Source of the DNA: a virus
Length of the DNA stretch: 47,756 nt
Reading direction: 5' to 3' (one strand)
IMG/VR virus record: IMGVR_UViG_3300019360_000018
Span: 1 to 47,756 of that record
Of this stretch, positions 11,034 through 47,175 are shown piece after piece; within the stretch, counting starts at the first letter, position 1; the number at the start of each line of letters is the position of its first letter. The position numbers were made by a program, and so were the translations under genes. The notes under the pieces are model-generated. The model ran no database searches. It saw only the letters and a list, made by a program, of their open reading frames with translations, and was not told the origin of the DNA.

Positions 11034-11512
11034 GCGTTCTAGGACTGCGGATCAAAGGCGATCCGGTGCTTCGCCAAGTCGCGAGTCCGGTGGATGCGAA
11101 CGACGAGAATATCCAGCGCCTGGCGCACGACATGATGGACACGCTGCTCGAGCACGAAGGCATGGGCCTCGCGGCCCCGCAAGTCGGCCAGAGCGTGCGC
11201 CTGATCGTCATGCGCACCGGGCCGCAGGACTTCAACCCGCGCGCCTTCGTCAACCCGCGCTGCATACGCGGCAAGGGCGAGCAGCTTTCGCTCGGCGAGG
11301 GCTGCCTGTCGGTGCCCGGCAAGTACGGCCGCGTGAAGCGCTCGCAAGTCGTGTGGATGGAGTACGAATCGCCCGGGTTCGCCGGCGTGCGGGAAGTCGT
11401 GAAGCTGAAAGGCATCATGGCCGTGTGCGCGGAGCACGAGTGCGACCATCTCGACGGCATCCTGTTCGACGACAAGCTGTACAACCCGCTCGCTCCTAGG
11501 AACCGCTTGTGA
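11030..11512 (+). CDS. def: Peptide deformylase (160 aa)
   Basis: Removes the formyl group from nascent proteins. All three family motifs are present: GMGLAAPQVG (about 44-53), EGCLSVPG (about 96-103, Cys a metal ligand) and HECDHLDG (136-143, H136, E137, H140). The length is close to bacterial enzymes but with a short C terminus, as in other phage deformylases. It starts in an ATGA overlap with the polymerase. Phages may use it to keep deformylation going when host enzymes limit late protein synthesis; that role is inferred. Confidence 0.92.
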   Translation: MSVLGLRIKGDPVLRQVASPVDANDENIQRLAHDMMDTLLEHEGMGLAAPQVGQSVRLIVMRTGPQDFNPRAFVNPRCIRGKGEQLSLGEGCLSVPGKYGRVKRSQVVWMEYESPGFAGVREVVKLKGIMAVCAEHECDHLDGILFDDKLYNPLAPRNRL

Positions 11513-11959: not shown

Positions 11960-12105
11960 TGTATCGAGTGCGCCGCTGCCGCGACGGCCTGTACTACTTG
12001 CAGGAGAAGCGCGCTCCCGGGCTCGCCGGCGGCATCTGGCGGCGGGTCGGGCTCGGATGCTATACGCGCGACGAGGCTCACGTCACTCTGCTCAATAATG
12101 CCTAA
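11956..12105 (+). CDS. Hypothetical basic protein (49 aa)
   Basis: A 49-codon frame whose ATG at 11956 overlaps the VRR-NUC stop (ATGA) and whose end overlaps the methyltransferase start by 8 bases. The product reads as a short beta-rich protein (YRVRRCRDGLYYLQEK...GIWRRVGLGCYTRDEA), the pattern of a strand-turn-strand module ending in a helix. The couplings on both sides support expression. Confidence 0.6.
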   Translation: MMYRVRRCRDGLYYLQEKRAPGLAGGIWRRVGLGCYTRDEAHVTLLNNA

Positions 12106-13096
12106 GGCCTACTACAACGAGATTGACCCCTTCTGCGCCGAGTGGCTGCGGAATCTCATTTTCCACGGCCTGATCGCCGACGGAGATGTGGACGAACGCT
12201 CGATCGAGGACGTACTACCAAGCGACTTGAGAGGATACACTCAATGCCACTTTTTCGCAGGAATTGGCGTGTGGAGTCTTGCGCTTCGCAACGCCGGATG
12301 GAGGGACGATGAGCCAGTCTGGACCGGAAGCTGCCCGTGCCAACCTTTCAGCGCGGCAGGCAAAAGAGGCGGGACTGCTGATGAGCGGCACCTATGGCCT
12401 GCATGGTTCCATCTCATCGAGCAGTGCCGCCCTCGCGTCGTCTTTGGCGAGCAGGTTGCAAGCAAGGCTGGCCTCGGTTGGCTCGATCTTGTACAAGCTG
12501 ACCTGGAAGGAGCGGGTTACGCCAGCGGGGCGGTCGATATCTGCGCTGCGGGCGTCGGCGCACCGCACATCCGGCAGCGGCTTTACTTCGTGGCCGACTC
12601 CCGACAAGAGCAGCGGGGACGGTGGTCGAGTGAGCAGCAACCCCCTCGCACGAACACGACCGAGCGGGTCGAAAAAGCAATTCACGATAAACGAGGCAGC
12701 GCAACTGGCGAGTTGGGCCACGCCGACAACGCGGGACCACAAGGACGGGGCGTGTCAGGAGCAGTTGGAGGCGGGAACGGTGCAGGTGAACTCTCTGCTC
12801 GGCCGACAAGCTCTCTTGACGGCTCCTTGGCCGACACCGATGGCCGGGACTCCGGCGCAGAACGGGAACAACGAGGCAGGGAATACCGACTCGTCGCGCC
12901 GGATGGTCGCGCTCGTACCTTCTGGTCCGACTGCGACTGGCTCCCCTGCATCGACGGAAAAGCGCGGCCAGTTGAGCCCGGCACATTGCCGCTGGCTCAT
13001 GGGATTGCCGGGAGAGTGGGACGTCTGCGTGCCTACGGCAACGCGCTCGTCGCGCCGTGCGCGGAAGAGTTCATAAGGGCATATCTGGAACGATGA
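12098..13096 (+). CDS. C5-cytosine DNA methyltransferase (332 aa)
   Basis: Methylates cytosine in DNA. It begins KAYYNEIDPFCAEWLRNLI, followed by motif I (FFAGIG, about 52-57), motif IV with the catalytic Cys81 (GSCPCQPF), motif VI-like GEQVAS, motif VIII (IRQRLYFVADS) and motif X-like YGNAL near the end. The central target-recognition part (about 175-270) is Gly/Arg-rich and poorly conserved, which fits the presence of a second gene in the other frame over the same DNA. It probably protects phage DNA from host restriction. No cognate restriction enzyme is seen. Confidence 0.88.
   Translation: MPKAYYNEIDPFCAEWLRNLIFHGLIADGDVDERSIEDVLPSDLRGYTQCHFFAGIGVWSLALRNAGWRDDEPVWTGSCPCQPFSAAGKRGGTADERHLWPAWFHLIEQCRPRVVFGEQVASKAGLGWLDLVQADLEGAGYASGAVDICAAGVGAPHIRQRLYFVADSRQEQRGRWSSEQQPPRTNTTERVEKAIHDKRGSATGELGHADNAGPQGRGVSGAVGGGNGAGELSARPTSSLDGSLADTDGRDSGAEREQRGREYRLVAPDGRARTFWSDCDWLPCIDGKARPVEPGTLPLAHGIAGRVGRLRAYGNALVAPCAEEFIRAYLER
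12309..13076 (+). CDS. Nested overlapping gene inside the methyltransferase (255 aa)
   Basis: A 256-codon frame lies wholly inside the methyltransferase gene in another frame. A GGAGGG site (12300-12305) stands 3 bases before its ATG at 12309. The product has repeated WPTP/WATP motifs (SWPTPDKSSGDGG, WATPTTRDHKDGA, WPTPMAGTPAQNGNN) and ends LSPAHCRWLMGLPGEWDxC then TATRSSRRARK. I recall this pattern from a widespread phage/prophage protein family, also encoded over methyltransferase genes, so this is not a random shadow. Its biochemical role is unknown to me. Confidence 0.7.
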   Translation: MSQSGPEAARANLSARQAKEAGLLMSGTYGLHGSISSSSAALASSLASRLQARLASVGSILYKLTWKERVTPAGRSISALRASAHRTSGSGFTSWPTPDKSSGDGGRVSSNPLARTRPSGSKKQFTINEAAQLASWATPTTRDHKDGACQEQLEAGTVQVNSLLGRQALLTAPWPTPMAGTPAQNGNNEAGNTDSSRRMVALVPSGPTATGSPASTEKRGQLSPAHCRWLMGLPGEWDVCVPTATRSSRRARKSS

Positions 13097-15589: not shown

Positions 15590-15851
15590 CGCCCCCGAGC
15601 AGGCCCCGCAAGGCCGTCGGCAGGAACTCAAGTACCTCGACCGTTTCCGCAATTGGGCGCGCAAACTGTCCGACGAGGACCTCACGATGGTCGTGGCCTT
15701 CTGTGCGAACGTGCAGATGGCTTGGAACGACGGCCAGGAGAAGGCCGCCACGGCGGCCGAGCAGGTCGAGCAGGGCACTGCGCAGATGCAGTTACCTGGG
15801 CTCGGCGGCCAGCCCGGCATCGGACAGGAGATGCCCAATGCTGCCGACTGA
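15567..15851 (+). CDS. Hypothetical helical protein (94 aa)
   Basis: ATG at 15567 follows AAGGAGG. It has a polar N terminus, a helical middle (LDRFRNWARKLSDEDLTMVVAFCANVQMAWNDGQE) and a Gln/Gly-rich tail. It overlaps both neighbours, showing tight packing of the operon. Function unknown. Confidence 0.6.
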   Translation: MLNNPSTNAPEQAPQGRRQELKYLDRFRNWARKLSDEDLTMVVAFCANVQMAWNDGQEKAATAAEQVEQGTAQMQLPGLGGQPGIGQEMPNAAD

Positions 15852-16563
15852 TAATGAGGAGCGCAAAGCGCTTCCGGTTTACACGTTCCTGACGAAATAT
15901 TTCCCGCTCGCCTTCCTGGAAGTCGTGCGGGTCGCCGTAGCCGGCGACAAGCAACACCTGAACAACAGCGAGCCGGGCGAGATCCGGTGGGCGCGGGAGA
16001 AGTCCACGGACCAGTTGAACACGGCGCTGCGGCATATCATGGACTACGGCATGGGCGAAGCGATCGACACCGACGGCCGTGCGCACCTGGCGAAAGCCAT
16101 CTGGCGGCTGAGTGCGCAGTTGCAGCTTGATGAGGAAGAACGACTTGGGATAACGCTCGGCGGCCTATTCACGGCCAAGTACACGTGGAAAACTGACGTG
16201 TTAACTTCCACGCTCAATACCGACCCTCGGTTTCAGGAGCCGACGTTCGAGCAACTCATGCGTGGCGGGTCCGGCAGCCAGTCTACGGCCACTGAAACCA
16301 GCATTCGGGCCGAATGCGCGCCCGATCCGCAGCCCGACGTGTGCGTGGTCTGCCCTCACCAGCGTGTCCTCCACGTTAAGTACCCGAAGCCGCCGCGCGA
16401 TCGCTTGAAGTGCGCAGACTGCCACGAGACGCTCGACCCGGCCACGGTGAAGATCAAGCCCGTATCTTGGCCGAAGCCCGCGCGCATCTGCACCGACTGC
16501 GGCGCGGATCTTGAGGAAGGTTTGCACGCGGCCCTTTGTATGTTAAATTCCCCTGCAATATGA
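15838..16563 (+). CDS. DUF5664 (dATP/dGTP pyrophosphohydrolase-like) plus zinc ribbon (241 aa)
   Basis: Residues about 12-98 match DUF5664, the MazG/MazZ-like all-helical nucleotide pyrophosphohydrolase family: LPVYTFLTKYFPLAFLEVVRVAVAGDK, W...STDQLNTALRHIMD, then DTDGRAHLAKAIWRLSAQLQ, where the E/D and H residues line the metal site. A C-terminal extension carries Cys pairs (CVVC, CADC, CTDC and a late C), probably one or two zinc ribbons. It may cleave specific dNTPs to shape the pool. No PurZ gene is present, so this is not a full diaminopurine pathway. ATG at 15838. Confidence 0.7.
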   Translation: MLPTDNEERKALPVYTFLTKYFPLAFLEVVRVAVAGDKQHLNNSEPGEIRWAREKSTDQLNTALRHIMDYGMGEAIDTDGRAHLAKAIWRLSAQLQLDEEERLGITLGGLFTAKYTWKTDVLTSTLNTDPRFQEPTFEQLMRGGSGSQSTATETSIRAECAPDPQPDVCVVCPHQRVLHVKYPKPPRDRLKCADCHETLDPATVKIKPVSWPKPARICTDCGADLEEGLHAALCMLNSPAI

Positions 16564-35606: not shown

Positions 35607-35846
35607 TCAGTTGCCGATCAACTGTGCCGAGCCAGCAGCTACCTTGATGTACTGCTTCGTCGGCGTGAGCTTCTGGAACACGTTGGCGACTAGTACGGCA
35701 AGGGTCGTGTAGCCGGAGCCCTCTGAGTCGGACTCCTGCACGGTGGCACCGGCTGCCGAGACGGCCAGGATGGTGTTGTTCGGCGGGAACGGGGCGACTG
35801 CGGCGTTGAGGTCCGTGGCGCTGGTGGAAAGGTTGAGCAGGTTCAT
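35607..35846 (-). CDS. Small capsid-associated protein, possible decoration protein (79 aa)
   Basis: ATG at 35846 follows GGAG. The product is small, polar and beta-rich (VAPFPPNNTILAVSAAGATVQESDSEGSGYTTLAVLVANVFQKLTPTKQYIKV) and lies between the major capsid gene and a terminator, so it is expected to be made in high amount. That setting suits a decoration or cement protein. Confidence 0.55.
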   Translation of the reverse strand: MNLLNLSTSATDLNAAVAPFPPNNTILAVSAAGATVQESDSEGSGYTTLAVLVANVFQKLTPTKQYIKVAAGSAQLIGN

Positions 35847-35910: not shown

Positions 35911-36966
35911 TTAGTAGGCGATCGACAGTACTGCCTGCGCGCGGCGCTTCGAGACGGTCATGGCCGCCTTCGAGGTCAGCGCGAAGTAGTGAACATAGCG
36001 ATCGTACACGCGGGGCGGGCGGCGGCTGATCAGCCAGTGCCCGTTGATCGGCCGCAACTTGATGAACATCGTGTTCAGGAAGTAGCAGCGCGCAGCCCAC
36101 GGCACCGCCGGTGCGTCGAGTTCGTCGAGCACGTCGAATACCGGGTCCCACACGAGTTCGACGCCCTTGAAGTACACGGCAGTCGTGCCCGCGTCCACAG
36201 AGACGCCACCCTTCTCGAGGCCCTTGGCGCCGGTGATCTGACGGTTGATCGTCAGGCCAGAACTGCGCCGGTAGGCGTCGAGGAACAGCCCGCCGCAGAG
36301 CATGAAGTTCGGCTTCGTGCCGCCGTAGCGGGTCGTCTCACGGAAATCGACCTCCATGCGGTCTATCAGGTCGGCCTCGGGGATGTTCTGGTCCGAGACG
36401 TTCCTCCACCAAGTGTTAGTCGCCTGGTTGATCGTACCCACGTCCGAGGAGACGGTCGGGTCCAACTGCACGAGATGGTCGAGGCCAGCGATGTCCGTCG
36501 CCGACGCCGAGCCGTCACGATGCAGCATGATGTCGAAGTTTTCCTCGAAGCCTTCCTTGAGAGCCGCCATGTTCTCGGTGAACAGGTTGGTCAGCGCGAC
36601 CCTCTCCGAGGCGCTCGGCTCGGCAGTCTTTTCGTCGGTGACGACGATGCCGTTCTGCACCAACTCGTCCTCGTCGAGGCCGAAGCCGTCATGGAACGAG
36701 CCGTAGGCGAACTTCGCCTGGTCGATCGTCCGCTTGCGGTTGTAGGTGACCTGACTCGAGCCGAAGTAGCTCTGGAAGTTGCTCGAGTTGCTCTTGCGAA
36801 GCTGCTCGACGACATACTGCTTGCCGCCCGGGTAGCCCTGCTTGCCCTCGATCATCTTTTTCAAAAGCGGCCGATCAGTATTGATCTGGTCGATCGGTGT
36901 GTTTTTCTGGAAAAAGTCGATGGCAAGTTTGCCACCGTAGGAAATCTGTTCTGCGTTGAAAGGCAT
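35911..36966 (-). CDS. Major capsid protein (351 aa)
   Basis: Its size, position after scaffold/portal genes and sequence fit an HK97-fold capsid protein: MPFNAEQISYGGKLAIDFF, then MIEGKQGYPGGKQYVVEQLR, a central IDRMEVDFRETTRYGGTKPNFMLCGGLFLDAYRR (the pattern of a capsid P-domain helix and loop) and the late AAVPWAARCYFLNTMFIKLRPINGHW. It has its own promoter-like sequence and is followed by a hairpin and a terminator, which suits high expression. Confidence 0.8.
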   Translation of the reverse strand: MPFNAEQISYGGKLAIDFFQKNTPIDQINTDRPLLKKMIEGKQGYPGGKQYVVEQLRKSNSSNFQSYFGSSQVTYNRKRTIDQAKFAYGSFHDGFGLDEDELVQNGIVVTDEKTAEPSASERVALTNLFTENMAALKEGFEENFDIMLHRDGSASATDIAGLDHLVQLDPTVSSDVGTINQATNTWWRNVSDQNIPEADLIDRMEVDFRETTRYGGTKPNFMLCGGLFLDAYRRSSGLTINRQITGAKGLEKGGVSVDAGTTAVYFKGVELVWDPVFDVLDELDAPAVPWAARCYFLNTMFIKLRPINGHWLISRRPPRVYDRYVHYFALTSKAAMTVSKRRAQAVLSIAY

Positions 36967-37133: not shown

Positions 37134-37137
37134 TCAA
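37109..37137 (-). promoter_or_regulatory. Possible capsid promoter (minus strand)
   Basis: TTGACA on the minus strand (37132-37137), overlapping the end of the last saccharide gene, then 17 bases and TTACAA, a poor -10 box. The 11-base TTGACAATATC is found again on the plus strand at 2876-2886. Confidence 0.35.
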
Positions 37138-37934
37138 GTCTTGACCAACTGAACGCGCTCGGCTATCTCAATTTTACATAGTCTGTCGGCCTCGGCCTTG
37201 TTACTCGGCATGACATAACCGGCAGGGATTATGGCAAATTTGTCTCTGGAGTCTTGAAACTCCCGACGCGCCGCGATCCAGTACGTCGGCATTTTTGCAT
37301 AACGTGCCAGGATGACCGGCAACGGACCAGGTGCGAGCGGCCTGTCCGGGTAGTACCGGCCGAAGTGCTCCATGACGAGCCCGGAAATTCCTCGGATCGG
37401 CGCTCCCGGGAGCGCCGCGCGCAACTTCTGTATGCGAGAGTTCCAGTAGCCCGACTTGCGGCCGAGGCTGACGTTCGGTGCCTCTTTGTCGTGCCAGTAG
37501 GTGCCGCCCTGGAAACAATCCATGCCGATCGGCACGATCGGCGAGCAGCCGAGCATGCACGCGAACGCGAGCGCTTGCTGGCCGCTGTTGAATTGCGTGA
37601 GCGGCCAGTCGATCGCGCGGTAGTCGCACCAGAAGTTCGGGCCGACGATCGGCACACCGTAGGGGCGTAGCTCGGACTCCATGTACTCGCGCACGCGGCC
37701 CTTGTCAAGGTAGCCTGGCTGAATACGCAGATGGTCCTTGCACCAGATGTATTCTGGTTTCAGGCGCAGTTTAAACGCATGCACATTCGCCGAGATGATC
37801 ACGGCCTGCGCGACGCCAGGAATTTTCTTGAGGTCAGATGGCGCGCTCGGGCCGCCGCCGACGATCACGGCCAGCTTTCCGTGGTGTCGGTCTATCAGCC
37901 GCGACACCAGCCACTTCAAGCCGCCGTCACTCAT
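37134..37934 (-). CDS. DUF115/Maf-like glycosyltransferase candidate (266 aa)
   Basis: The N terminus has a nucleotide-binding strand-loop (LAVIVGGGPSAPSDLKKIPG, about 21-40) followed by AVIISANVHAFKLRLKPEYIWCKD, the pattern of DUF115/MptE-like domains found in Maf flagellin glycosyltransferases and sialyltransferase-like enzymes. Later motifs are FNSGQQALAFACMLGCSPIVPIGMDC and YWNSRIQKLR. There is no membrane segment. It is the last gene of the saccharide cassette and overlaps the preceding one by 8 bases. It may transfer the finished sugar to protein; this is inferred. Confidence 0.55.
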   Translation of the reverse strand: MSDGGLKWLVSRLIDRHHGKLAVIVGGGPSAPSDLKKIPGVAQAVIISANVHAFKLRLKPEYIWCKDHLRIQPGYLDKGRVREYMESELRPYGVPIVGPNFWCDYRAIDWPLTQFNSGQQALAFACMLGCSPIVPIGMDCFQGGTYWHDKEAPNVSLGRKSGYWNSRIQKLRAALPGAPIRGISGLVMEHFGRYYPDRPLAPGPLPVILARYAKMPTYWIAARREFQDSRDKFAIIPAGYVMPSNKAEADRLCKIEIAERVQLVKT

Positions 37935-38751
37935 AGGCCAGCCACGGCGACATAATGCGCGTTGCCGCGCTAGTCTCGTGGAGTCCGTGCGAGAAAATCA
38001 CGAGGCGAGCATTGGCAGGCTTCGGCACGAGGTTCGGCGTGTCGTACCCGAGTTTGCGATGCCGGGGCGTGAGCATCTGCGCCTGAGTGCGGTGCGAGCG
38101 CGGACGGCGCATCGTCACAATCTGGTGCGCCTTCGGCACCAGCTTGCGGTAGTAATACACGCCGTCGGCCTCGGTCCAGTACGCCTCCCCGTCCTTGTCG
38201 AGGATGTAGGAAATGATCGCCTGATCGCTGCCGTGATACCCGGCGTTGAATGCCTCGGCAATGGCGGCCTCGGGATTCTTGGAGAAAAAGTCCCACACCT
38301 GCCGGCGGGCGCCGGCATTCATCATGAGCAGCGCGCCGCCGAACTGTTGCTGGCGCTTGCCGTTTTCCCGGCCGGAGCGCCAGCCGACGAAATCCTCGGT
38401 GCGATTGAACACCGGGCCGAGGTAGTCAACTGGCTTGAGGTCGATGTCAAGCACGGCGAAGCGCGGGCCCGCAATTTTCTCAAAGCCAGGCGCGAACGAC
38501 GCGAGTTTGCGGTGGCAACCGGGGCCGCGCCGCCATGTGGGATTCTTGAGCGTAGCGAACAGATTGCCGATCGGGACGGCCTTGATTTCGTTGTTGAGCC
38601 CTACTGCGTCGTCAGTTATGCAGACGAAGCGCTGCATCTCTGGGTAGTGCTTTTTCGTGCGTGCGTATAGGATGTTCACATCCTCGGACGTGAATCGCAA
38701 GGGGTAGCCCGCCATCGGGCGCCACTTGTACACGACGATCGTCGGGATCAT
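37927..38751 (-). CDS. GT-A-fold glycosyltransferase-like protein (274 aa)
   Basis: The start is the ATG at 38751, in an ATGA overlap with the previous gene. It has a GT-A type layout: TIVVYKWRP strand, FTSEDVNILYARTKKHYPEMQRFVCITDD, a DxD metal site (FAVLDIDLKPVDY, D102 and D104), and the late QFGGALLMMNAG and YHGSDQAIISYIL, as in GT8-like and capsule transferases. It is probably a nucleotide-sugar transferase; the acceptor is unknown. Confidence 0.65.
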   Translation of the reverse strand: MIPTIVVYKWRPMAGYPLRFTSEDVNILYARTKKHYPEMQRFVCITDDAVGLNNEIKAVPIGNLFATLKNPTWRRGPGCHRKLASFAPGFEKIAGPRFAVLDIDLKPVDYLGPVFNRTEDFVGWRSGRENGKRQQQFGGALLMMNAGARRQVWDFFSKNPEAAIAEAFNAGYHGSDQAIISYILDKDGEAYWTEADGVYYYRKLVPKAHQIVTMRRPRSHRTQAQMLTPRHRKLGYDTPNLVPKPANARLVIFSHGLHETSAATRIMSPWLAYE

Positions 38752-39401
38752 GTGTCCAGCAGCCGCGCGACGAAGGCTCCTCCACTGCCGAAGTCGATTG
38801 TCTGGACGCCGCGCCGCGCCATGCGGTTCGCGAGGCAGGTGGCCGTCGGTCCACACGCCAGGAATGCAATCTGCGGCTTCGCCTGCACGATCGCCTTCTC
38901 GAACAGGTCGATCAGTGCGTAGGCGTTTTCGGACGGGCATTCGATGTGCGTGACCTTGGCCGCACCGTAGGCGAGCATGCGGAGTAGCGACGACTTCGGC
39001 TCACACACGGCGACGACGTGCCGGTCCTTCCACAACTTTTGCAGCCTGCGCGCGAACTTGATCCGGTCGATCCACGGCGCGCTGTCGGGGCGCGAGATGA
39101 ATGCCGAGTAGTACGTCATGTCCTCGGTCAAGTAAGGCATGAAGCGGTCGATGCGTGCGAGCCAGTTGTCGTTTTTCGGCCCGGCGTTCGACAAGCGCGG
39201 TATGCCTACGATGCAGTCGGGATTCGGCCGTGCGACGGTGTTGCGCAGTTCCTTGCCGAGCCTCGCGTTCGCCGGCTCGCGCACATAGCCCTGGCCGACG
39301 ATCAGCTTGAACTCGCCATCGCCGAGGCGCGCGATCGACGAGCCTTTGAGCAAGACATCGACCGTTTCCATTTCCGAGACTACTGCGGGATAGTGGCTCA
39401 T
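38748..39401 (-). CDS. GT-D fold (DUF1792-type) glycosyltransferase (217 aa)
   Basis: The ATG at 39401 was chosen because it overlaps the preceding stop (ATGA). Residues 21-30 (SSIARLGDGE) form the R-x-GDGE signature of the GT-D/DUF1792 family, followed by PDCIVGIPRL, YYSAFISRPDSAPWIDRIKFARRLQKLWKDRHVVAVCE and FLACGPTATCLANRMARRGVQTIDFGSGG. Members of this fold add glucose to protein-linked glycans in streptococcal adhesins. This fits a cytoplasmic protein-glycosylation role. Confidence 0.72.
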   Translation of the reverse strand: MSHYPAVVSEMETVDVLLKGSSIARLGDGEFKLIVGQGYVREPANARLGKELRNTVARPNPDCIVGIPRLSNAGPKNDNWLARIDRFMPYLTEDMTYYSAFISRPDSAPWIDRIKFARRLQKLWKDRHVVAVCEPKSSLLRMLAYGAAKVTHIECPSENAYALIDLFEKAIVQAKPQIAFLACGPTATCLANRMARRGVQTIDFGSGGAFVARLLDT

Positions 39402-39907
39402 GCCGGCCTCCACAGAGCGAGGAATTCCGAACCTAGACGACTGTTGTATGGCGGTAATTCTTGGAAGTCGTTCAATTTTGCGCGCCACCAGAGAGGCTTG
39501 CGCACGAACGTATGCCAAGGCGTGCCGTCAGCTAGACTCTTAGTAGAAGATTCACAAGAGACAGCGATAAACAGCGCGCGTTTTGCAAGACTGCGCATGT
39601 GATCTAGTACAAGGTCGATCGCCTCAGGCTCAATGTGTTCTAGCATGTGCAGGCTGACTACGAGACATGCCGGTTTAGGCGGCGCTGAAAATTCTGGTAT
39701 TCCTGGGTCATAGTTTGCAACAGGCAAGCGGGAGAAATGGCGCGACAAACTGCGCGCGTCGCCACAACCGTAATCCAAGACAGACTGCGAATCCGTGTCT
39801 TTTGCCAACTGATCCACAAGCGGCTGCCACGCCGAAACGCGCGTGTCCGGCTTGTGTTTTGCGTAATACTGTTGGTAGCGCGCCCGGTGCTCGGCTGAAA
39901 TCGTCAC
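39398..39907 (-). CDS. SAM-dependent methyltransferase (169 aa)
   Basis: Start GTG at 39907 in a GTGA overlap. Motif I of class I methyltransferases is SVLDYGCGDARS (42-53), followed by VANYDPGIPEF (acidic loop) and SLHMLEHIEPEAIDLVLDHM (motif IV-like). It is short for the class and seems to lack the last strands. Base composition is lower in GC than its neighbours. In this cassette it most probably methylates a sugar. Confidence 0.72.
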   Translation of the reverse strand: MTISAEHRARYQQYYAKHKPDTRVSAWQPLVDQLAKDTDSQSVLDYGCGDARSLSRHFSRLPVANYDPGIPEFSAPPKPACLVVSLHMLEHIEPEAIDLVLDHMRSLAKRALFIAVSCESSTKSLADGTPWHTFVRKPLWWRAKLNDFQELPPYNSRLGSEFLALWRPA

Positions 39908-40668
39908 AGTAGTCGCTCCCACGGATAGCGGATCGGTTTCGTGACCTTCGTGTTGCCGACGCGCTCTTTGATTCGCCGGCGGCGGCCGTATTCGCTCGTG
40001 TCCCTGTCGAGCGTCTTTATCGAGGCGTCGGCAATCTCGCCCGAGCAGTACACATGCAGGCTCACGTTCGACGGCGCCAGGGCTTCGACGCCGGCGGCTT
40101 TCAGTTGCCGAAGGAACGCGCCGCCTCCCCCGAGGCAGCCAGCATAGTCGGGATCGTAACCGCCGACTTTCCAGTATAGTTCCCGGTAACACAGGAACGA
40201 ATCGACGTGCGGCTTGATTTCGCCGAACTTCACGCTGCGCGGGATCGCGTCTTTATTGCGCGTGAAGTCGGCCGCGCCGATGCGAAAGCGTCGGAACTTG
40301 TACCAATGATTGGGCCGATATGAAAAGAGATTCTCGACGAGCGCCTCTGCCGACTCAGGCGGCAGAATATGGTCGATATCCATGTGCAGGAGCCAGGGTG
40401 TCATCGCGATATGCGAGCCCAGGTTCCGCGCCATCGAGCGGTTCCAAGGGATGTCAACCTTCACGCGGTACAACTCAATCGGCAGTGAGTAGTGATCCGG
40501 CACGACATTGAGGGCCGGTTCCGGCGAGCAATCGTCCACGATGATCAGCTTCATGTGCTCTAGGACTTCGGCCGAGTACGTTGCCCAAGTATCGAGATGC
40601 TTGCGGAGCATGGCCGGTTGTCGGTAGTACGGCACGATGACCGAGATTTTGTAGTGGGGCGCGCTCAT
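39904..40668 (-). CDS. Family 2 glycosyltransferase (254 aa)
   Basis: The start is ATG at 40668, in an ATGA overlap with the dehydratase gene. GT2 features: KISVIVPYYRQP (7-18), LIIVDDCSPE (41-50), WNRSMARNLGSHIA, then the DxD metal site in HMDIDHIL (D97, D99), and a later LCYRELYWKVGGYDPDYAGCLGGGGAFLRQLK acceptor-side motif. There is no membrane helix. It transfers a sugar from a nucleotide donor; donor and acceptor are not evident. Confidence 0.85.
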   Translation of the reverse strand: MSAPHYKISVIVPYYRQPAMLRKHLDTWATYSAEVLEHMKLIIVDDCSPEPALNVVPDHYSLPIELYRVKVDIPWNRSMARNLGSHIAMTPWLLHMDIDHILPPESAEALVENLFSYRPNHWYKFRRFRIGAADFTRNKDAIPRSVKFGEIKPHVDSFLCYRELYWKVGGYDPDYAGCLGGGGAFLRQLKAAGVEALAPSNVSLHVYCSGEIADASIKTLDRDTSEYGRRRRIKERVGNTKVTKPIRYPWERLL

Positions 40669-41612
40669 TTCACGATGCTCCACAGACGACGAACCGCCTC
40701 CTCTTGCTTGCGCTCGCGCGTGGCCGAGAGCAGGTCTAGCAGCTGCTTGGCCGTCAGCGGCAACGTGAGGTCCTGCGCCACTCGTTTCACCTTCGGGTGA
40801 CGAGTAGGCGTGAGCGGGCCGCCATACGTCAGGGATTCGGTCAGCTTCTCGCCGGGGCGCAGGCCCGTCTCGACGATCTTGCCCTTGCCGCCATTCTCGC
40901 GGATCAGCCGCTTCGCCAGTTCGCCCATGCTGATGGGCTCGCCCATATCGAAAATGTACGGGCCGCCAGCCTCGAAGCCGGCGCACGTCAGTACCAACTC
41001 GGCCGCCTCGGGGATCGACATGAAGTACCGTGTGCAGGCCGCACTCGTCAGTGTGATCGGCTTGCCGGCGGCTAGTTGCTCGCGCCATAGCGGCAGGACG
41101 GAGCCAGCGCTGTCGAGCACGTTGCCGAAGCGGCAGATGACGAACTTCGTCGGCGACTGCTCGAGCACGTCCCGCAACATGAGTTCGGCGCAGCGCTTCG
41201 TGGCGCCCATGATCGACGCCGGGAACACGGCCTTGTCGGTCGAGATGTGGACGAATGTCGAGACGCCAGCAGTGCGCGCGGCCTGCGCCGCAATGTAGGT
41301 GCCTCGGACGTTCGTGTCTATCGCCGCGAGCGGCGACAGTTCGCAGAGCGGGACGTGCTTGTGCGCGGCGGCATGCAGCACGACATCCACGTCCTCGAAC
41401 GACTCCTGCATGAGGCGGTCGTCTGTGACGCTGCCAAGGATCGGCGTTACCTGGTCGGCCGTGAGTTCCTTGAGCAGGTTGTACAGCGCTCCCTCGGTCA
41501 GGCACACGAGCCGGAGGTTGCGCACACCCTGCGCGATCAACTGCCGGCAGATTTCCGAGCCGATCGAGCCGCCGGCGCCGGTGACGGCAACCGTCCTCCC
41601 TTTGAAGTTCAT
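40665..41612 (-). CDS. NDP-sugar 4,6-dehydratase, CapD/WbpM/PseB type (315 aa)
   Basis: An extended SDR enzyme of the polysaccharide-biosynthesis type: the NAD(P) site TGAGGSIGSE (11-20), HAAAHKHVPL (80-89), STDKAV with S124, MGATK with M135 and K139, then RYFMSIPEAAELV and GLRPGEKLTE. The tyrosine of the usual SYK triad is replaced by Met, as in WbpM/FlaA1-like 4,6-dehydratases. It corresponds to the soluble catalytic domain, without the membrane part of WbpM. It makes a keto-deoxy sugar nucleotide for the cassette; the host must complete the donor. Confidence 0.88.
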   Translation of the reverse strand: MNFKGRTVAVTGAGGSIGSEICRQLIAQGVRNLRLVCLTEGALYNLLKELTADQVTPILGSVTDDRLMQESFEDVDVVLHAAAHKHVPLCELSPLAAIDTNVRGTYIAAQAARTAGVSTFVHISTDKAVFPASIMGATKRCAELMLRDVLEQSPTKFVICRFGNVLDSAGSVLPLWREQLAAGKPITLTSAACTRYFMSIPEAAELVLTCAGFEAGGPYIFDMGEPISMGELAKRLIRENGGKGKIVETGLRPGEKLTESLTYGGPLTPTRHPKVKRVAQDLTLPLTAKQLLDLLSATRERKQEEAVRRLWSIVK

Positions 41613-41621
41613 CCGAGTCTC

Positions 41622-41831
41622 CTACTTCAAGTTGTAGTCGGTGAAGCGAATCTCTCCGGTGTTCGGATCGACGGCATAGCAACGGACGGCCGGCGCTTCG
41701 TACTCACGAATGCACACTACCCACCGGAACGGCGCCGGAGGCTCAGGCAGGTTCACACCATTAGCCGTTGGCTTGCCGTCCAGATGGAAGTTCAGGACGA
41801 CGATGGCTCCGGCGAGGGCGAGCGGGTTCAC
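41622..41831 (-). CDS. Hypothetical protein (69 aa), GTG start
   Basis: GTG at 41831 overlaps the scaffold stop (GTGA). A short hydrophobic N terminus (LALAGAIVVLNF) is followed by a beta-rich part (FRWVVCIREYEAPAVRCYAVDPNTGEIRFTDYNL). It bridges the head genes and the saccharide cassette, so all are on one transcript. Function unknown. Confidence 0.55.
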   Translation of the reverse strand: MNPLALAGAIVVLNFHLDGKPTANGVNLPEPPAPFRWVVCIREYEAPAVRCYAVDPNTGEIRFTDYNLK

Positions 41832-43033
41832 GCGCCGCGCGCCATCTCAATCCCCTGCTCGATGGCCTCCTGTATCGATTTCGGCTCCGGCTTCTGCGCG
41901 CCAGCTGGCTGTTGCGTGCGCAGCGGTGTGTTCTGCGGAACCTTGCCGCCGGGCTGAACGTTGCCAGGACGCGGGACCCCCCACACGCCCGTATTGGGCA
42001 GCGTGGAATATATTTTCCGGTACATGGCGGGCCACTTCGACGGATGCAGCGGCGGGATGCCTGTTTTCCGGTCGCCGCGAATCTGCTCGTTGAGCATCTC
42101 CACGATGAGTGGTTTTTTCGCAGCGTAGAGCGGGTCCTTGGAGAACTCGGCCTCGATCGTGTTGAGTTCCGTGCGTGCGGCACTCTCCGCTTGCGCATAC
42201 TGCGCGCGGGCCTGCGACGCTTGTGCCTGCGCGGCGCCGACCTTGCCTTGGTGCGTGGTGGCCGCGCGGCTCGCCGCGAGTTCCTCCGCGATGTGGGGCT
42301 CTAGTTTGCCGTCGGCTACGGCCTTCTCGAGGTCGGCGTGGCCGGCGTAGCTCGTGACCCCCGGGATGCGGAAGCCGCCGACGCGCGACAGCGCCGACAG
42401 TTCGCGGATCATGAAGTTGGCGGCCTGCTTCAACTTGTTCTGGTCACCACTATTGACGAGTTCCAGATAGTCGAGCACGCCTGCGTACTGTTGCGGGGTC
42501 GCTCCGGTTTCCGTAACCGCATTGATCAGTTCGTCGCGCTCGCCGGTTACCGTCGCAAGCGAGGTTTCAGCGGACTTGGTTCGATCGACGAGCGTGCGAA
42601 TGCGCTCTTTCGTTTCGCGCTTGAGGGCATTCGGTATTGGGTCGGTGAGCGGGTCAGGCTTTTTTGCCCCCTGATTGTCCTTCTTTCCAGCTTCGAGCGC
42701 AGCCAGACGAGCCGCCTCGTCAGCGCCCGCATCGCCAGCGCCGCCAGCGCCGTCAGCGCCAGCCTCGCTGTCTTTCGGATCGGCGCCGTCGCCATCCTGT
42801 CCAGAATCGTCTCCTGGCGTAACTGACTGATCGCCAGAATCGTCGCCCGCAGGTGCGCCCTGCGCGCCATCTCCATCAGTGCCGGAATCCAGCGGCGAAG
42901 CGTCATCGGTGCCTCCATCGCCCGAGTCATCGTCAGCGACTCCCGGCGGCGGCACGCCGCCAGCATTCGCGGCGGCGATACCTGCATCGAGCGCTTCTGC
43001 CATTGACTTCGGGGCGGTTTTTTCGATCGTCAT
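41828..43033 (-). CDS. Scaffold protein candidate (401 aa)
   Basis: ATG at 43033 follows AGGAGTAACAC. The first third is very acidic and low-complexity (many DDSGDG and GADGAGGAG runs). The middle (about 130-300) is helical with basic and acidic heptads, and the end is basic and Gln/Pro-rich. This layout, and the place right after the portal gene and ahead of the capsid gene, is typical of podovirus scaffolds. It has no protease motif. Confidence 0.72.
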   Translation of the reverse strand: MTIEKTAPKSMAEALDAGIAAANAGGVPPPGVADDDSGDGGTDDASPLDSGTDGDGAQGAPAGDDSGDQSVTPGDDSGQDGDGADPKDSEAGADGAGGAGDAGADEAARLAALEAGKKDNQGAKKPDPLTDPIPNALKRETKERIRTLVDRTKSAETSLATVTGERDELINAVTETGATPQQYAGVLDYLELVNSGDQNKLKQAANFMIRELSALSRVGGFRIPGVTSYAGHADLEKAVADGKLEPHIAEELAASRAATTHQGKVGAAQAQASQARAQYAQAESAARTELNTIEAEFSKDPLYAAKKPLIVEMLNEQIRGDRKTGIPPLHPSKWPAMYRKIYSTLPNTGVWGVPRPGNVQPGGKVPQNTPLRTQQPAGAQKPEPKSIQEAIEQGIEMARGA

Positions 43034-43047
43034 GTGTTACTCCTGTG

Positions 43048-45207
43048 TCAAGCCGGGGGCTGTTCTAAAACTGGCGCCTCGAGCAGAGGCGGTTCAATCT
43101 GCGGGCCGATCGCATCGCCGATCGGGCCTTCGGGGGCGCCGCCGGGGCCGGGCAGCAGTTCGCCGCCGACACCTGCGCCGCCCATCGGAGCGCCCTCGGC
43201 GCCGGGCATGGCCGGCAATTCAGGCACTTGAGGGATGAACTGCTCGGGGTCGATTTCGTCGTCCATGCGGGTCATCGACTCGCGGAGCAGGTTCGACAGC
43301 GACTCGGCCAGCGGCAGGTTGCCGAGGATCGTCGCCTCCTGAATCTCGCGCATGAGTTGCTGCATGATCGGGAGGATGACGCCCCAAGAATCGCGATCGG
43401 CGGCCTTGGACGGCTTGCCCGTCGTGCCCGCCTTGATTTCGATTTCGACCATCGTCAGCAAGTCATCGACGGCCATGCCCTCAGGCCAGAGCGCGGCGGG
43501 TCCGCAAATGCGTTGTGCATCCTTGAGGGTCAGCGCGCCGAGCGCCTGCTCGCCGGTGTACACGGCAAGGTCCGTGAGCATGCTTTCCAACTGGTCGCGG
43601 TCGGAGGTCGTGCGCGAGGCGAAGCCGGTCTGTTGAATCTCGGCCTCGGTCGCCGTTTTCTCGACGGACACGCTCGCCTGCAACGCCTCTTGCACGCCGC
43701 TGACGCGCTCCATGTCCATGACGATTTCTGCCGTCTCGAACATACGCATGTCGATGCTCGCGGTCGGCTTCGGCGCGAACAGGTCGCCGATCTTGGCGTC
43801 CGGGCGCACCGGCTTGATGCCGATGAACGCTGAGTTCGCGCCGCTCTTGACATTCTTCATGTCCTCTGAATCAACCTCGCCGTCGAGGAACAGCACGCCA
43901 GGGATCGAGCGCTCGCGCGTGAGGCGCTTCGTCGAGCGCGCCGCGTCATATTCGTCCATGAGTTTGCGCAGCCGCCACGGCAGCGACTGCGGGTGCCGCG
44001 CGCCGTCCACCGGGTAGAACACGAGCAGGAAATACGGGTAGAAGCGCGTCGTCGGATAATCCGGCTGATAGGACGGCTTCGCAAACTTTTTGCAACCCTC
44101 CACGAGCGTCTCGACGTGATTCGTGATCCGGTTCCAGCGCTCGATGATGCGATAGAAGCACGGCGAGTTCGTGTTCGGTGCGCTGATCCCGGTCGGCATC
44201 GCGCTCGACGTGAACTGCTCGGCCTCGGCGGCGAAAATGTCGGCCTCGGCCTCCGCAGGCGCGAGCCCGGTGACGGCCGTGTAGGTGTTCTCCTCGATCG
44301 CGGCCAGGTCCTTCGTAGCGCGCTGGTAGTATTTGACCGCGCTCTGCAAATCCGACTTTTTCAGCGCCGGGAACTGCGCCAAGAGCGCACCTTCCATGCG
44401 GTAGATCGAGTTCGCGATCCAGCCGGCGCTCTTGTAATCGCCGAGGTCACGGATGTCGATGCTGCACTGAATGTCCTCGCCGCTCACGAAGTCGAACACC
44501 ATCGCTTTGCGCAGCGCGACCTCTAGTTTGACGGCGACCGACTGCTCCAACTCCTGCAACTCGAGCATCTTCGCGTCTATTTCCTCCGGCGTCTGGTACT
44601 CGCCACCATAGCTCGGATCATCGGACATCAGCTGCGCGCGGCACGACTCCAGGGTCGCGATGTTCTGGCGCGTGTCGTTCAATTCCGTCTGCATCTGCGG
44701 GATGTTCGTGCCCTTGCAGATGATCGTGGCCTTCACCCATCCGGGTCCGGTTGACAGCGCGGAGCGCACCTGCTTCTGGCAGGACTGCTTGAGCGTGGAC
44801 GTGGGCGCACGCCACAGGCTCGAGATGACGGACTGCAACGTCTTGGCGAAATCGTCCTGTTGCTTCGTGCCGCGATTGTCAACCTGCTTCGGCTTTTTCA
44901 CCGACACGTCCGGGTTGCGCGCGTACAGGAACGACACGAGGATGTCGATGAACGAGCCGATCAGGTTCGCTGACACCGCCCAATTCAGGTGCGCAGTGCC
45001 GGCCGCGTAGCGGCGGTCGATGGCGTACTGCGCGCGGGATACCTTGTCGAAGTCCCGCGCCTGCTTCCACTCCTTGAGGATGGCCTCGACCTGATTGGCC
45101 TCCTCCATCTGCTTTTCCTTGTTCGCCGGGTCCTCGTCAGCCGCAACGACGCCCTTGGTCACAGCGTCGAGCATGCCTGGGTCGGGAGTGAAGCCGGTAA
45201 CGTCCAT
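43048..45207 (-). CDS. Portal protein (719 aa)
   Basis: Its length and order (terminase, portal, scaffold, capsid) fit a P22-type portal. The N terminus is helical (KQMEEANQVEAILKEWKQARDFDKVSRAQYAIDRRYA), then NLIGSFIDILVSFLYARNPDVSV, a typical portal stem start. Long crown helices follow (LNDTRQNIATLESCRAQL; MLELQELEQSVAVKLEVALRK), and a Pro/Gly-rich tail (MPGAEGAPMGGAGVGG). It starts in a TAATG overlap with the 91-residue gene. Confidence 0.82.
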   Translation of the reverse strand: MDVTGFTPDPGMLDAVTKGVVAADEDPANKEKQMEEANQVEAILKEWKQARDFDKVSRAQYAIDRRYAAGTAHLNWAVSANLIGSFIDILVSFLYARNPDVSVKKPKQVDNRGTKQQDDFAKTLQSVISSLWRAPTSTLKQSCQKQVRSALSTGPGWVKATIICKGTNIPQMQTELNDTRQNIATLESCRAQLMSDDPSYGGEYQTPEEIDAKMLELQELEQSVAVKLEVALRKAMVFDFVSGEDIQCSIDIRDLGDYKSAGWIANSIYRMEGALLAQFPALKKSDLQSAVKYYQRATKDLAAIEENTYTAVTGLAPAEAEADIFAAEAEQFTSSAMPTGISAPNTNSPCFYRIIERWNRITNHVETLVEGCKKFAKPSYQPDYPTTRFYPYFLLVFYPVDGARHPQSLPWRLRKLMDEYDAARSTKRLTRERSIPGVLFLDGEVDSEDMKNVKSGANSAFIGIKPVRPDAKIGDLFAPKPTASIDMRMFETAEIVMDMERVSGVQEALQASVSVEKTATEAEIQQTGFASRTTSDRDQLESMLTDLAVYTGEQALGALTLKDAQRICGPAALWPEGMAVDDLLTMVEIEIKAGTTGKPSKAADRDSWGVILPIMQQLMREIQEATILGNLPLAESLSNLLRESMTRMDDEIDPEQFIPQVPELPAMPGAEGAPMGGAGVGGELLPGPGGAPEGPIGDAIGPQIEPPLLEAPVLEQPPA

Positions 45208-45483: not shown

Positions 45484-47175
45484 TCAGTAAAACCTCGTTT
45501 CCATCGCTGGTGCGTTCGTGCTTTCCAGCCATTCGGTCGTGAATGGTAGCAACTTTTTTAGTGCCTGTGAAACCGGGTTGTGCGGATTTTTCATCTTGTC
45601 GAGCCCGCGCCCGAACAGCCCGCACACATCGCAGGCGTCATCATGGACGACGGCGGGGAATGCGCAAAGCTGGTCGAGCAGGCGCGTGGCCCAGGCCTTG
45701 CCGCGCGGCAGGTACACCTTTTTCTGCGCAGCTATCGCCTGGAACGAGGCCAGCTTGATCGCCTTGTTCTTGATCGATGGCAGATTGTCGATCATTACAT
45801 AGCGCCGGGGGCGCGCCTTCGTCATGCCAGCCTCTATCGCCGGGCGCACTGCGTTGTCGATCGGGCCGCCTTCGTTCCACCAGATGCGTGGGTGGTTGCG
45901 CAGCACCATTTCTAGGAAGGCGTCGATCGTCACGTCCGTGGTGCGCTGCCCGTACCACCAGTCGAGCAGGTACACGTCGTCGTTCTCCGCGAGGCCGAAC
46001 GCGCCGTGCTCGGTGAAGTCGCCGCGATCCTCGAGGGTCGCGTAGTCGCTTGCTCCGTACACGGTGAGGCGCTCCGGCCGCCCGCCCGGCTGACCGGGCT
46101 CCACGCTGTCGTCATACCACTGGAACCACTCGCGCTTGAAGTCCAGACCCTCACCGAGCACCGGTCGCTGCTGGTACAGCGCTGCCCAGGTGCGCGCGGC
46201 GCGCGGGTTGTTTTCCCACTGGCTCCACCACGTCGAGTCGAACGGGTCCTTGGTCTGCGAAAACCACTCCGGCCAGATGTACTCGCCTATCGCGCGGCCT
46301 AGCGGATCGTCGCCGCGCTCGCACTTCGCCGACAGGTTCAGGACATTCCAATACTGGCCGTCGCGACAGAGAATGCGACCCGACTCACCGTTGTACTTCT
46401 CAGGCAGGATGCGCCCCTCCAACCCGTCCGGGTGCCAGCGTGTCGTGATCAGGATGATCCAGCCGCCGGGCAGGAGGCGGGTCGTCACCGTGTCATTGTA
46501 CTCGTCGAAGGTCTTGTCGCGAATGGCGATGGAATCTGCGTCCTCGCGGCCACTGACCGGATCGTCGATGACGAATCCGTTCGCGCGGTTGCCTGTGATG
46601 CCGCCCTGAATACCCGCGCACATGAACTCAGAGCCGTTCGTCAGCGCCCACTCGTTCACGGCGCGCTGATCGGCGCGCAGCGCAGGCCGATCACGCCAGA
46701 TGCGAACCTCGCGCGGCTGACGCACGAGCGCGCGGGCCTTGCGGCTCTGCTTGCGCGCGATGGTGTCGGCGTAGCTCGCCAGGATGACGCGATACCCCGC
46801 CCATCGCTTCATCGCCCACACAGGCGCGAGCACACTGGCGTATGTGGACTTCGCCGAGCCCGGCGGCGCAAAGATCATGAGCCTCCCCATGAACGTGAGC
46901 ATCGTTTTCTCGATCGCTTCCAGGATGATCTTGTGGTGCAGCGCTACGGCGAGGTCAACCGGCTTGAATAGCTCGGCCTCCTCGTCGTCGGTCATCGGCG
47001 CACCCGGGATGTCGATGGACCGGGCGTACTCCACCAAGGAGATTCGGGCGCGCCGGCGGCGCAATAGCTCGAGCGCACAGGCCGCTTCGACCGTCATTTC
47101 GGGTCGTCCTGGGGTTTGAGCTGCGTGTGCGCGAGCCATGGCATAGGGCATGGTGTGCATATTGCGCTGAAACAT
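45484..47175 (-). CDS. terL: Large terminase subunit (563 aa)
   Basis: The packaging motor. The ATPase domain has Walker A APPGSAKST (103-111), Walker B GFVIDDP (200-206, D204-D205) and the coupling motif ITTRWHPDG (243-251). The nuclease domain starts at about 372 with GASDYAT (D377), and has DNAVRP and HDDACD further on as metal ligands. The length is normal. Met codons at 47160, 47151 and 47097 are other possible starts, since no strong ribosome site marks 47175. Confidence 0.92.
   Translation of the reverse strand: MFQRNMHTMPYAMARAHAAQTPGRPEMTVEAACALELLRRRRARISLVEYARSIDIPGAPMTDDEEAELFKPVDLAVALHHKIILEAIEKTMLTFMGRLMIFAPPGSAKSTYASVLAPVWAMKRWAGYRVILASYADTIARKQSRKARALVRQPREVRIWRDRPALRADQRAVNEWALTNGSEFMCAGIQGGITGNRANGFVIDDPVSGREDADSIAIRDKTFDEYNDTVTTRLLPGGWIILITTRWHPDGLEGRILPEKYNGESGRILCRDGQYWNVLNLSAKCERGDDPLGRAIGEYIWPEWFSQTKDPFDSTWWSQWENNPRAARTWAALYQQRPVLGEGLDFKREWFQWYDDSVEPGQPGGRPERLTVYGASDYATLEDRGDFTEHGAFGLAENDDVYLLDWWYGQRTTDVTIDAFLEMVLRNHPRIWWNEGGPIDNAVRPAIEAGMTKARPRRYVMIDNLPSIKNKAIKLASFQAIAAQKKVYLPRGKAWATRLLDQLCAFPAVVHDDACDVCGLFGRGLDKMKNPHNPVSQALKKLLPFTTEWLESTNAPAMETRFY

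Follow-up and report, generated by a model that had tools for sequence, protein, structure and literature searches.

A six-gene sugar-enzyme cassette in the head operon of an environmental phage and its possible role in virion glycosylation

Six genes between the putative scaffold and the major capsid gene

We analyzed a 47,756-base stretch of viral DNA (the window), the complete sequence of the IMG/VR virus record IMGVR_UViG_3300019360_000018; such records may be fragments. Head and packaging genes occupy the right part of the window on the minus strand. Within them, between a putative scaffold gene and the gene for the major capsid protein (MCP), lie six open reading frames (ORFs) that run from 41612 to 37134, all on the minus strand, and whose products resemble sugar enzymes. 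An earlier note, made from the sequence alone, had described them as a cassette of coupled genes, and the junctions are as it reported: ATGA at 40668/40665, GTGA at 39907/39904, and ATGA at 39401/39398 and at 38751/38748, while the last two genes share eight bases, ATGAGTGA, at 37934/37927. Because the products match known domains and the genes are conserved in relatives, chance is excluded, and the sequence evidence confirms the cassette as real.

The first four family labels in that note were borne out by profile searches. The first gene (40665-41612, minus strand) encodes a 315-amino-acid (aa) nucleotide-sugar 4,6-dehydratase of the CapD/WbpM/PglF type, which matched Polysacc_synt_2 (PF02719) at 7.8e-86 (288.3 bits against a cut-off of 20.2) and had WlaL/PglF as its best solved relative (1.6e-58). 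In an alignment to 5bju it keeps GAGGSIGSE and STDKAVxPxxIMGxTKR; both the GxxGxxG cofactor motif and the TDK...M...K catalytic residues are present. The protein consists of the soluble catalytic domain only. Identity as PseB was rejected, as the TIGR03589 equivalog scored 149.7 bits against a cut-off of 407.75. The second gene (39904-40668, minus strand) encodes a family 2 glycosyltransferase (GT2) of 254 aa (PF00535, 3.3e-10), which matched the GtrB-like phrog_841 only at 0.053. It is followed by a gene with a GTG start (39398-39907, minus strand) for a 169-aa S-adenosylmethionine-dependent methyltransferase (PF13489, 5.1e-7; phrog_24759, 4.7e-22). The G+C content at third codon positions (GC3) of this gene is 0.565 versus 0.76 to 0.85 in its neighbors, which suggests that it was acquired recently. 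The fourth product, of 217 aa (38748-39401, minus strand), is a GT-D glycosyltransferase of the DUF1792 type: it matched PF08759 at 7.3e-21 (75.4 bits, cut-off 27), and solved DUF1792/GalT1 enzymes matched it at 1e-15 to 1e-12 (5v4a, 1.4e-15; GalT1, 2.5e-12).

The fifth protein (274 aa; 37927-38751, minus strand) matched no glycosyltransferase family in Pfam, and the GT8 profile does not recognize it; its earlier label, GT-A-like, was upheld by the predicted structure. The AlphaFold model had a predicted local distance difference test (pLDDT) score of 88.6 and a predicted template modeling (pTM) score of 0.87, and in Foldseek it matched LgtC at 6.1e-8 (probability 1.00, 14% identity) as well as many GT6 enzymes. 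In an alignment of 68 homologs, C44, D47, D102, D104, D176, and Q177 are invariant, so that the DxD (D102, D104) and DQ (D176, Q177) motifs occur without exception. The glycosyltransferase family phrog_1962 matched at 1.1e-4; a PDB sequence search with the GT-A profile returned no significant glycosyltransferase. Because of the invariant residues and the match of the model to LgtC, we take the protein to be a predicted GT-A enzyme of the LgtC type, and file it by fold only and not as a member of GT8.

The sixth protein (266 aa, with a small C-terminal domain; 37134-37934, minus strand) is DUF115/MptE-like and GT42-like, and its earlier label, DUF115/Maf-like, is the weakest of the six. In favor of the label are GGGPS and G-x-D motifs, seen in a homolog alignment of 22 rows, and a match to phrog_4603 (6.3e-7). 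The match to PF01973 (3.9e-5), at 23.9 bits, is under the Pfam cut-off of 34.6, and the top fold match of the model (pLDDT 90.2), CST-II, is not significant alone (E = 0.006, template modeling score 0.35). A PDB search with the DUF115 profile gave no significant glycosyltransferase, the matches being mainly Rossmann-type reductases that share GGGPS. Some 55 residues of the model, encoded at 37134-37290, match GINS small domains (56 aa, probability 1.00); this part is probably an added small domain at the C terminus.

None of the six proteins has a clear membrane helix, as had been noted before: the 19-residue hydropathy peak never exceeded 1.6, and the highest value, 1.59 at residue 122 of the DUF115-like protein, falls within a helix of the model. 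By the same measure, no GtrA flippase or membrane-bound transferase of the gtrABC kind is among them. The six proteins appear to be active and soluble enzymes; the dehydratase retains its TDK...M...K site and the GT-A protein its DxD and DQ motifs.

The flanking genes, all on the minus strand, define the setting. Upstream are TerL (45484-47175, a strong family match), the portal gene (43048-45207, called from a weak family match of 0.005 and its conserved position), and the putative scaffold gene (41828-43033), which has no family match and is assigned by position and by the portal-scaffold-MCP order conserved in about 70 relatives. Between the scaffold and dehydratase genes is a 69-aa ORF (41622-41831), absent from the earlier note, with a homolog at the equivalent place in relative L008 (44% over 45 aa, 3.2e-8). 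Downstream is the MCP gene (35911-36966; phrog_9953, 7.8e-28), whose product ends in SIAY. The location between scaffold and capsid genes is thus confirmed, on the capsid side by family and on the scaffold side by position and conserved order only. A gene for a small Ser/Thr-rich protein of 79 aa (g79; 35607-35846), a candidate decoration protein, comes after the MCP gene; g79 matched no family in Pfam or PHROGs, and homologs follow the MCP gene in L008, L011, and others. Further tail and virion genes lie beyond it. In the gap between the DUF115-like and MCP genes, a promoter scan found nothing above chance, and no terminator there was convincing. Elsewhere in the window are genes for a peptide deformylase (11030-11512; PF01327, 6.5e-41) and for a product that matched the N-terminal domain of dATP/dGTP diphosphohydrolase (15703-16563; 1.5e-9).

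Recurrence of the cassette genes in related phages

Scans with the MCP gave about 70 nonredundant relatives (identified here by L numbers) in which a single contig carries both scaffold and MCP. Their ORFs were called mechanically, and shadow frames in the GC-rich DNA led to missed ORFs; the DUF115-like genes of L036, L096, and L097 were recovered only by direct comparison. Sugar-enzyme-like genes were present in the interval between scaffold and MCP in 46 of 69 relatives and absent from 23; under a strict count that accepted only GT-A, Pfam-supported GT2, or GT9 genes, the number was 28/69. The kinds of sugar gene differ between lineages, and several are unrelated. One lineage has a GT2-like gene (Pfam, 8.6e-12) with a second gene labeled GT-A-like on a weak Pfam match of 0.06 only, sometimes joined by a sugar C-methyltransferase or a histidine phosphatase gene. 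Another has a gene for a PIG-L-type deacetylase (L014:5683-6225, L186:6093-6773) together with DUF115-like and methyltransferase genes; yet another has genes for an ATP-grasp-like protein, a small membrane protein, a GT-A protein, and a DUF115-like protein. L177 carries a GT9-like gene, and in L009 and L012 the arrangement is empty. From these sequences, the gap between scaffold and MCP is a hotspot of varied gene content. The same gap holds a gene for a small Gp10-like protein (PF21628, phrog_825) in L135 (6156-6524) and at about 40 loci; this gene is common in relatives that lack the GT-A/DUF115 pair, and the protein is possibly an alternative capsid decoration.

The earlier note had proposed a search for the same gene order in other phages, and three distant relatives, L103, L105, and L180, do carry the window's set, with the dehydratase, GT2, GT-D, and GT-A genes in order at 34 to 54% identity. 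The dehydratase is 49% identical in L103 and L105, the L180 copy being a fragment at the contig end; GT2 is 39 to 54%, GT-D 48 to 52%, and GT-A 37 to 41% identical. The methyltransferase is found in L180 only (48.5%), where it precedes GT2, whereas in the window GT2 is first. In all three relatives the set sits between TerL and portal, and the DUF115-like gene (34 to 37%) remains between scaffold and MCP. A dehydratase gene also occupies the TerL-portal site in L153 and L164. These comparisons point to a set that has been inherited or exchanged as a unit and that moves, yet stays within the run of genes from TerL to MCP. That it moves as a unit and still keeps to this run is, on sequence grounds, the strongest evidence for a joint function with virion building.

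Single-protein scans of viral contigs with the GT-A or the DUF115-like protein gave no matches; alignments were needed. An alignment-based scan with GT-A gave 200 confirmed relatives, and loci were drawn from the best 80 of these. At 61 of the 74 nonredundant loci in that sample, a head, neck, or tail gene on the same strand adjoined GT-A on at least one side, and at 36 on both. In siphophages the order was portal gene, collagen-like gene, DUF115-like gene, GT-A/GT2/methyltransferase genes, and head-tail connector genes. In Tetraselmis virus S20, an isolate record, the GT-A cluster lies between head genes and a head-closure gene. Bacterial genomes had distant GT-A copies only; the closest with an adjoining DUF115-like gene was on an Alcaligenaceae contig (L194, strain CAII-56), possibly a lead to a betaproteobacterial host for one branch of the family. 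A family of about 305 aa is encoded beside GT-A at L008:6368-7294, L010:2011-2928, L011:5478-6377, and about 25 other loci. It belongs to no Pfam family and gave weak but consistent matches to ATP-grasp ligase profiles (best, 0.005). In podophages and siphophages it adjoins a protein of about 100 aa that has a single hydrophobic segment and the motif PRETISGLLGR.

Virion glycosylation and its alternatives

We lean toward the interpretation that the six gene products make a methylated 6-deoxysugar glycan and attach it to a protein of the virion, perhaps at the C terminus of the MCP. By analogy with its family, the dehydratase would act first, turning a UDP-N-acetylhexosamine into a 4-keto-6-deoxy sugar. 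No aminotransferase or reductase gene that would finish the deoxysugar was found in the window; therefore, a complete pathway would need host enzymes, and a host enzyme probably finishes the sugar. The GT2, GT-D, GT-A, and DUF115/GT42-like transferases would then assemble a short glycan and attach it in the cytoplasm, and the methyltransferase would cap or alter it. Because the cassette genes overlap each other and, within the head operon, precede the MCP gene, their products are probably made alongside the capsid, and the structural protein would be modified before or during assembly.

Of the structural proteins, the MCP is the likeliest acceptor and its C-terminal tyrosine, Y351, a tentative candidate site; g79 is the next candidate protein. 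In all eight nonredundant phages with GT-A and DUF115-like genes directly upstream, the MCP ends in Tyr (SIAY, SLEY, SIY, SLTY), while the MCPs of other relatives have A, S, Q, G, or other residues in last place. The MCP tree requires two changes for these eight, L009 and L167 being nested among them, and a single clade of the eight was marginally rejected (approximately unbiased test, P = 0.044, for a group picked after the pattern was seen). This pattern, which rests on about two events, is compatible with joint gain or loss of the tyrosine and the cassette. Such a C-terminal lead is worth testing because, according to passages in PMC12619734, the glycans of mycobacteriophages are located at the C termini of capsid and tail-tube proteins. 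Covariation of g79 with the cassette was considered and dropped, since g79 follows lineage and occurs also without these genes. For a fibre protein, which the earlier note had included among the likely targets, we found no specific support; the weak statistical lead is to the MCP C terminus instead. The collagen-like protein of siphophages has Tyr or Trp as its last residue in 21/36 cassette carriers versus 2/17 noncarriers (Fisher P = 0.0024, uncorrected for ancestry), a pattern noticed after the fact; with independent pairs, which gave no power, the association was not significant. Such Gly-X-Y proteins, encoded after the portal gene and adjoining the sugar cassettes, often have Tyr or Trp as the very last residue (L057, L059, L060, L062, L073, L079, and others).

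Of the proposal in the earlier note that the glycan is placed on the phage's own virion, what stands is that the cassette is real, that its enzymes look active and soluble, that the set is conserved within the run from TerL to MCP, and that unrelated sugar genes recur at the site. Several observations weigh against it. The missing aminotransferase and reductase genes are one. The proven glycosylation enzymes of mycobacteriophage Che8 are nonhomologous to the cassette's, the one exception being gp109, which GT2 matched weakly (12 bits), and are encoded at the genome end and not in the head module. Some relatives, the L127 and L164 records, carry glycosyltransferase genes away from head genes. 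L178 has GT-A and DUF115-like genes in the interval, with other genes between, and its MCP ends in HIA. The tyrosine association was found post hoc, goes only marginally beyond shared ancestry, and may be mostly ancestry. Finally, LgtC and CST-II, two of the best fold or family matches, are lipooligosaccharide enzymes, so that the cassette might instead modify the host surface.

That is the main rival: late in infection, soluble or peripheral transferases would act on cytoplasmic precursors and remodel lipooligosaccharide or some other glycan on the host surface, blocking readsorption of progeny to debris or superinfection. We think it unlikely, although it deserves serious attention. Besides the resemblance of the GT-A model to LgtC and of the DUF115-like protein to CST-II, both references building lipooligosaccharide, it gains from the GT9-like gene in L177, from transferase genes outside the head module in some relatives, and from the usual reading of phage GT8 genes, e.g., in pelagimyophages (PMC7029224). 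It is disfavored by the repeated siting of the genes between scaffold and MCP or between TerL and portal, and not with lysis or tail-fibre genes, and by the lack among the six proteins of a membrane protein of the GtrA, GtrB, or GtrC type or of a clear membrane segment. Somewhat less probable is that the glycan goes not to the MCP but to another virion protein, which could be g79, a tail fibre, or the collagen-like protein of siphophages. This is a sub-case of virion glycosylation with a different acceptor, and its likelihood overlaps that of the preferred interpretation. Genes like g79 follow the MCP gene in many relatives with the GT-A/DUF115 pair, but g79 is also present in L121, which lacks these genes. 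A Gly-X-Y protein is encoded directly upstream of the siphophage cassette, and its Tyr/Trp end is commoner when the cassette is present, but that association is uncorrected for ancestry and loses significance with independent pairs, and no collagen-like gene adjoins the cassette in the window.

The two remaining alternatives seem improbable. One is that these are unrelated cargo genes (morons) at a permissive site, without a joint function. The contents of the hotspot are indeed very diverse and include nonsugar genes, and the GC3 of the methyltransferase gene is atypical; against this, the same set recurs in three lineages (34 to 54% identity) at two different sites, and the active-site motifs of the GT-A family show no variation. 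The other, to which we give the least credence, is that the cassette glycosylates phage DNA at hypermodified bases. Phage glycosyltransferases are capable of this (Pyle et al. 2024, as cited in a passage of PMC12619734), and the window encodes a C5-cytosine DNA methylase at 12098-13096. No gene of the thymidylate synthase/dCMP-hydroxymethylase type (PF00303) was found in the window and 14 related records, in a search with a positive control, and the family search gave no Tet/JBP match, although its control was silent. To our knowledge, location in the head operon and a 4,6-dehydratase are both unlike the known base-modification sets.

Returning to virion glycosylation, a broader version of it, which we offer as a doubtful extension, is an exchangeable "capsid serotype" locus shared by two or more morphotypes of tailed phages. 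Sugar enzymes encoded in the head operon, each set able to replace another, would glycosylate a C-terminal Tyr, perhaps Trp, of a protein on the capsid surface, which would be the MCP in podophages and a collagen-like head protein in siphophages.

Relation to known glycosylation systems

Within the library searched, the literature on sugar cassettes in head modules yielded no account of an exchangeable one located in the capsid operon. Virion glycosylation by phage genes is already known; what appears to be new, judging from that search, is such a cassette within the capsid operon. If virion glycosylation is correct, glycan coats would be a common, swappable capsid trait of environmental phages, like bacterial serotypes, and would affect particle stability, surface adsorption, and immune recognition. 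The cassettes would also supply soluble enzymes that could readily be used to glycosylate proteins in the cytoplasm, and sugar genes between scaffold and capsid genes would be a genomic predictor that can be tested on isolates.

The dehydratase shares its catalytic domain, with the TDK...M...K site, with Campylobacter PglF (WlaL) and CapD/WbpM/FlaA1, but the phage enzyme is the soluble catalytic domain only, and neither an aminotransferase nor a reductase accompanies it in the window. The phage GT-D is of the same fold family, over nearly its full length, as the GT-D (DUF1792, GalT1) that takes part in glycosylation of streptococcal serine-rich-repeat proteins; it is shorter (217 aa) and falls far under the cut-off of the SP_1767 subfamily. 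The GT-A protein has the fold (6e-8) and the DxD/DQ site residues of the LgtC/GT8 galactosyltransferases, at 14% identity and outside any Pfam family. With the Maf/DUF115 flagellin glycosylation proteins and the GT42 enzyme CST-II, the sixth protein has in common the GGGPS and G-x-D motifs and weak family and fold matches; it differs in scoring under the Pfam cut-off, in a fold match that is nonsignificant alone, and in its extra C-terminal domain.

Among phages, a close parallel is in mycobacteriophages. Freeman and coworkers reportedly described virion glycosylation in Che8, Corndog, and Myrna in 2023. According to passages in PMC12363180 and PMC12619734, capsid and tail-tube proteins of mycobacteriophages are glycosylated by phage enzymes. 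As portrayed there, these systems resemble the window cassette in having phage-encoded soluble glycosyltransferases, GT2-like ones included, and a methyltransferase-like domain, and their target is a virion protein, which is proven for them and proposed for the cassette. Genes 108-110 of Che8 are found at the right genome end, whereas the cassette is in the head module, and, unlike the cassette, they include no 4,6-dehydratase, GT-D, LgtC-like, or DUF115-like gene. The glycosyltransferase clusters of pelagimyophages combine GT8-type and deoxysugar enzymes, as the window cassette does, and have been read as modifiers of the host O chain (PMC7029224). Those clusters are found with tail-fibre genes; the window cassette and its kin lie between packaging and capsid genes.

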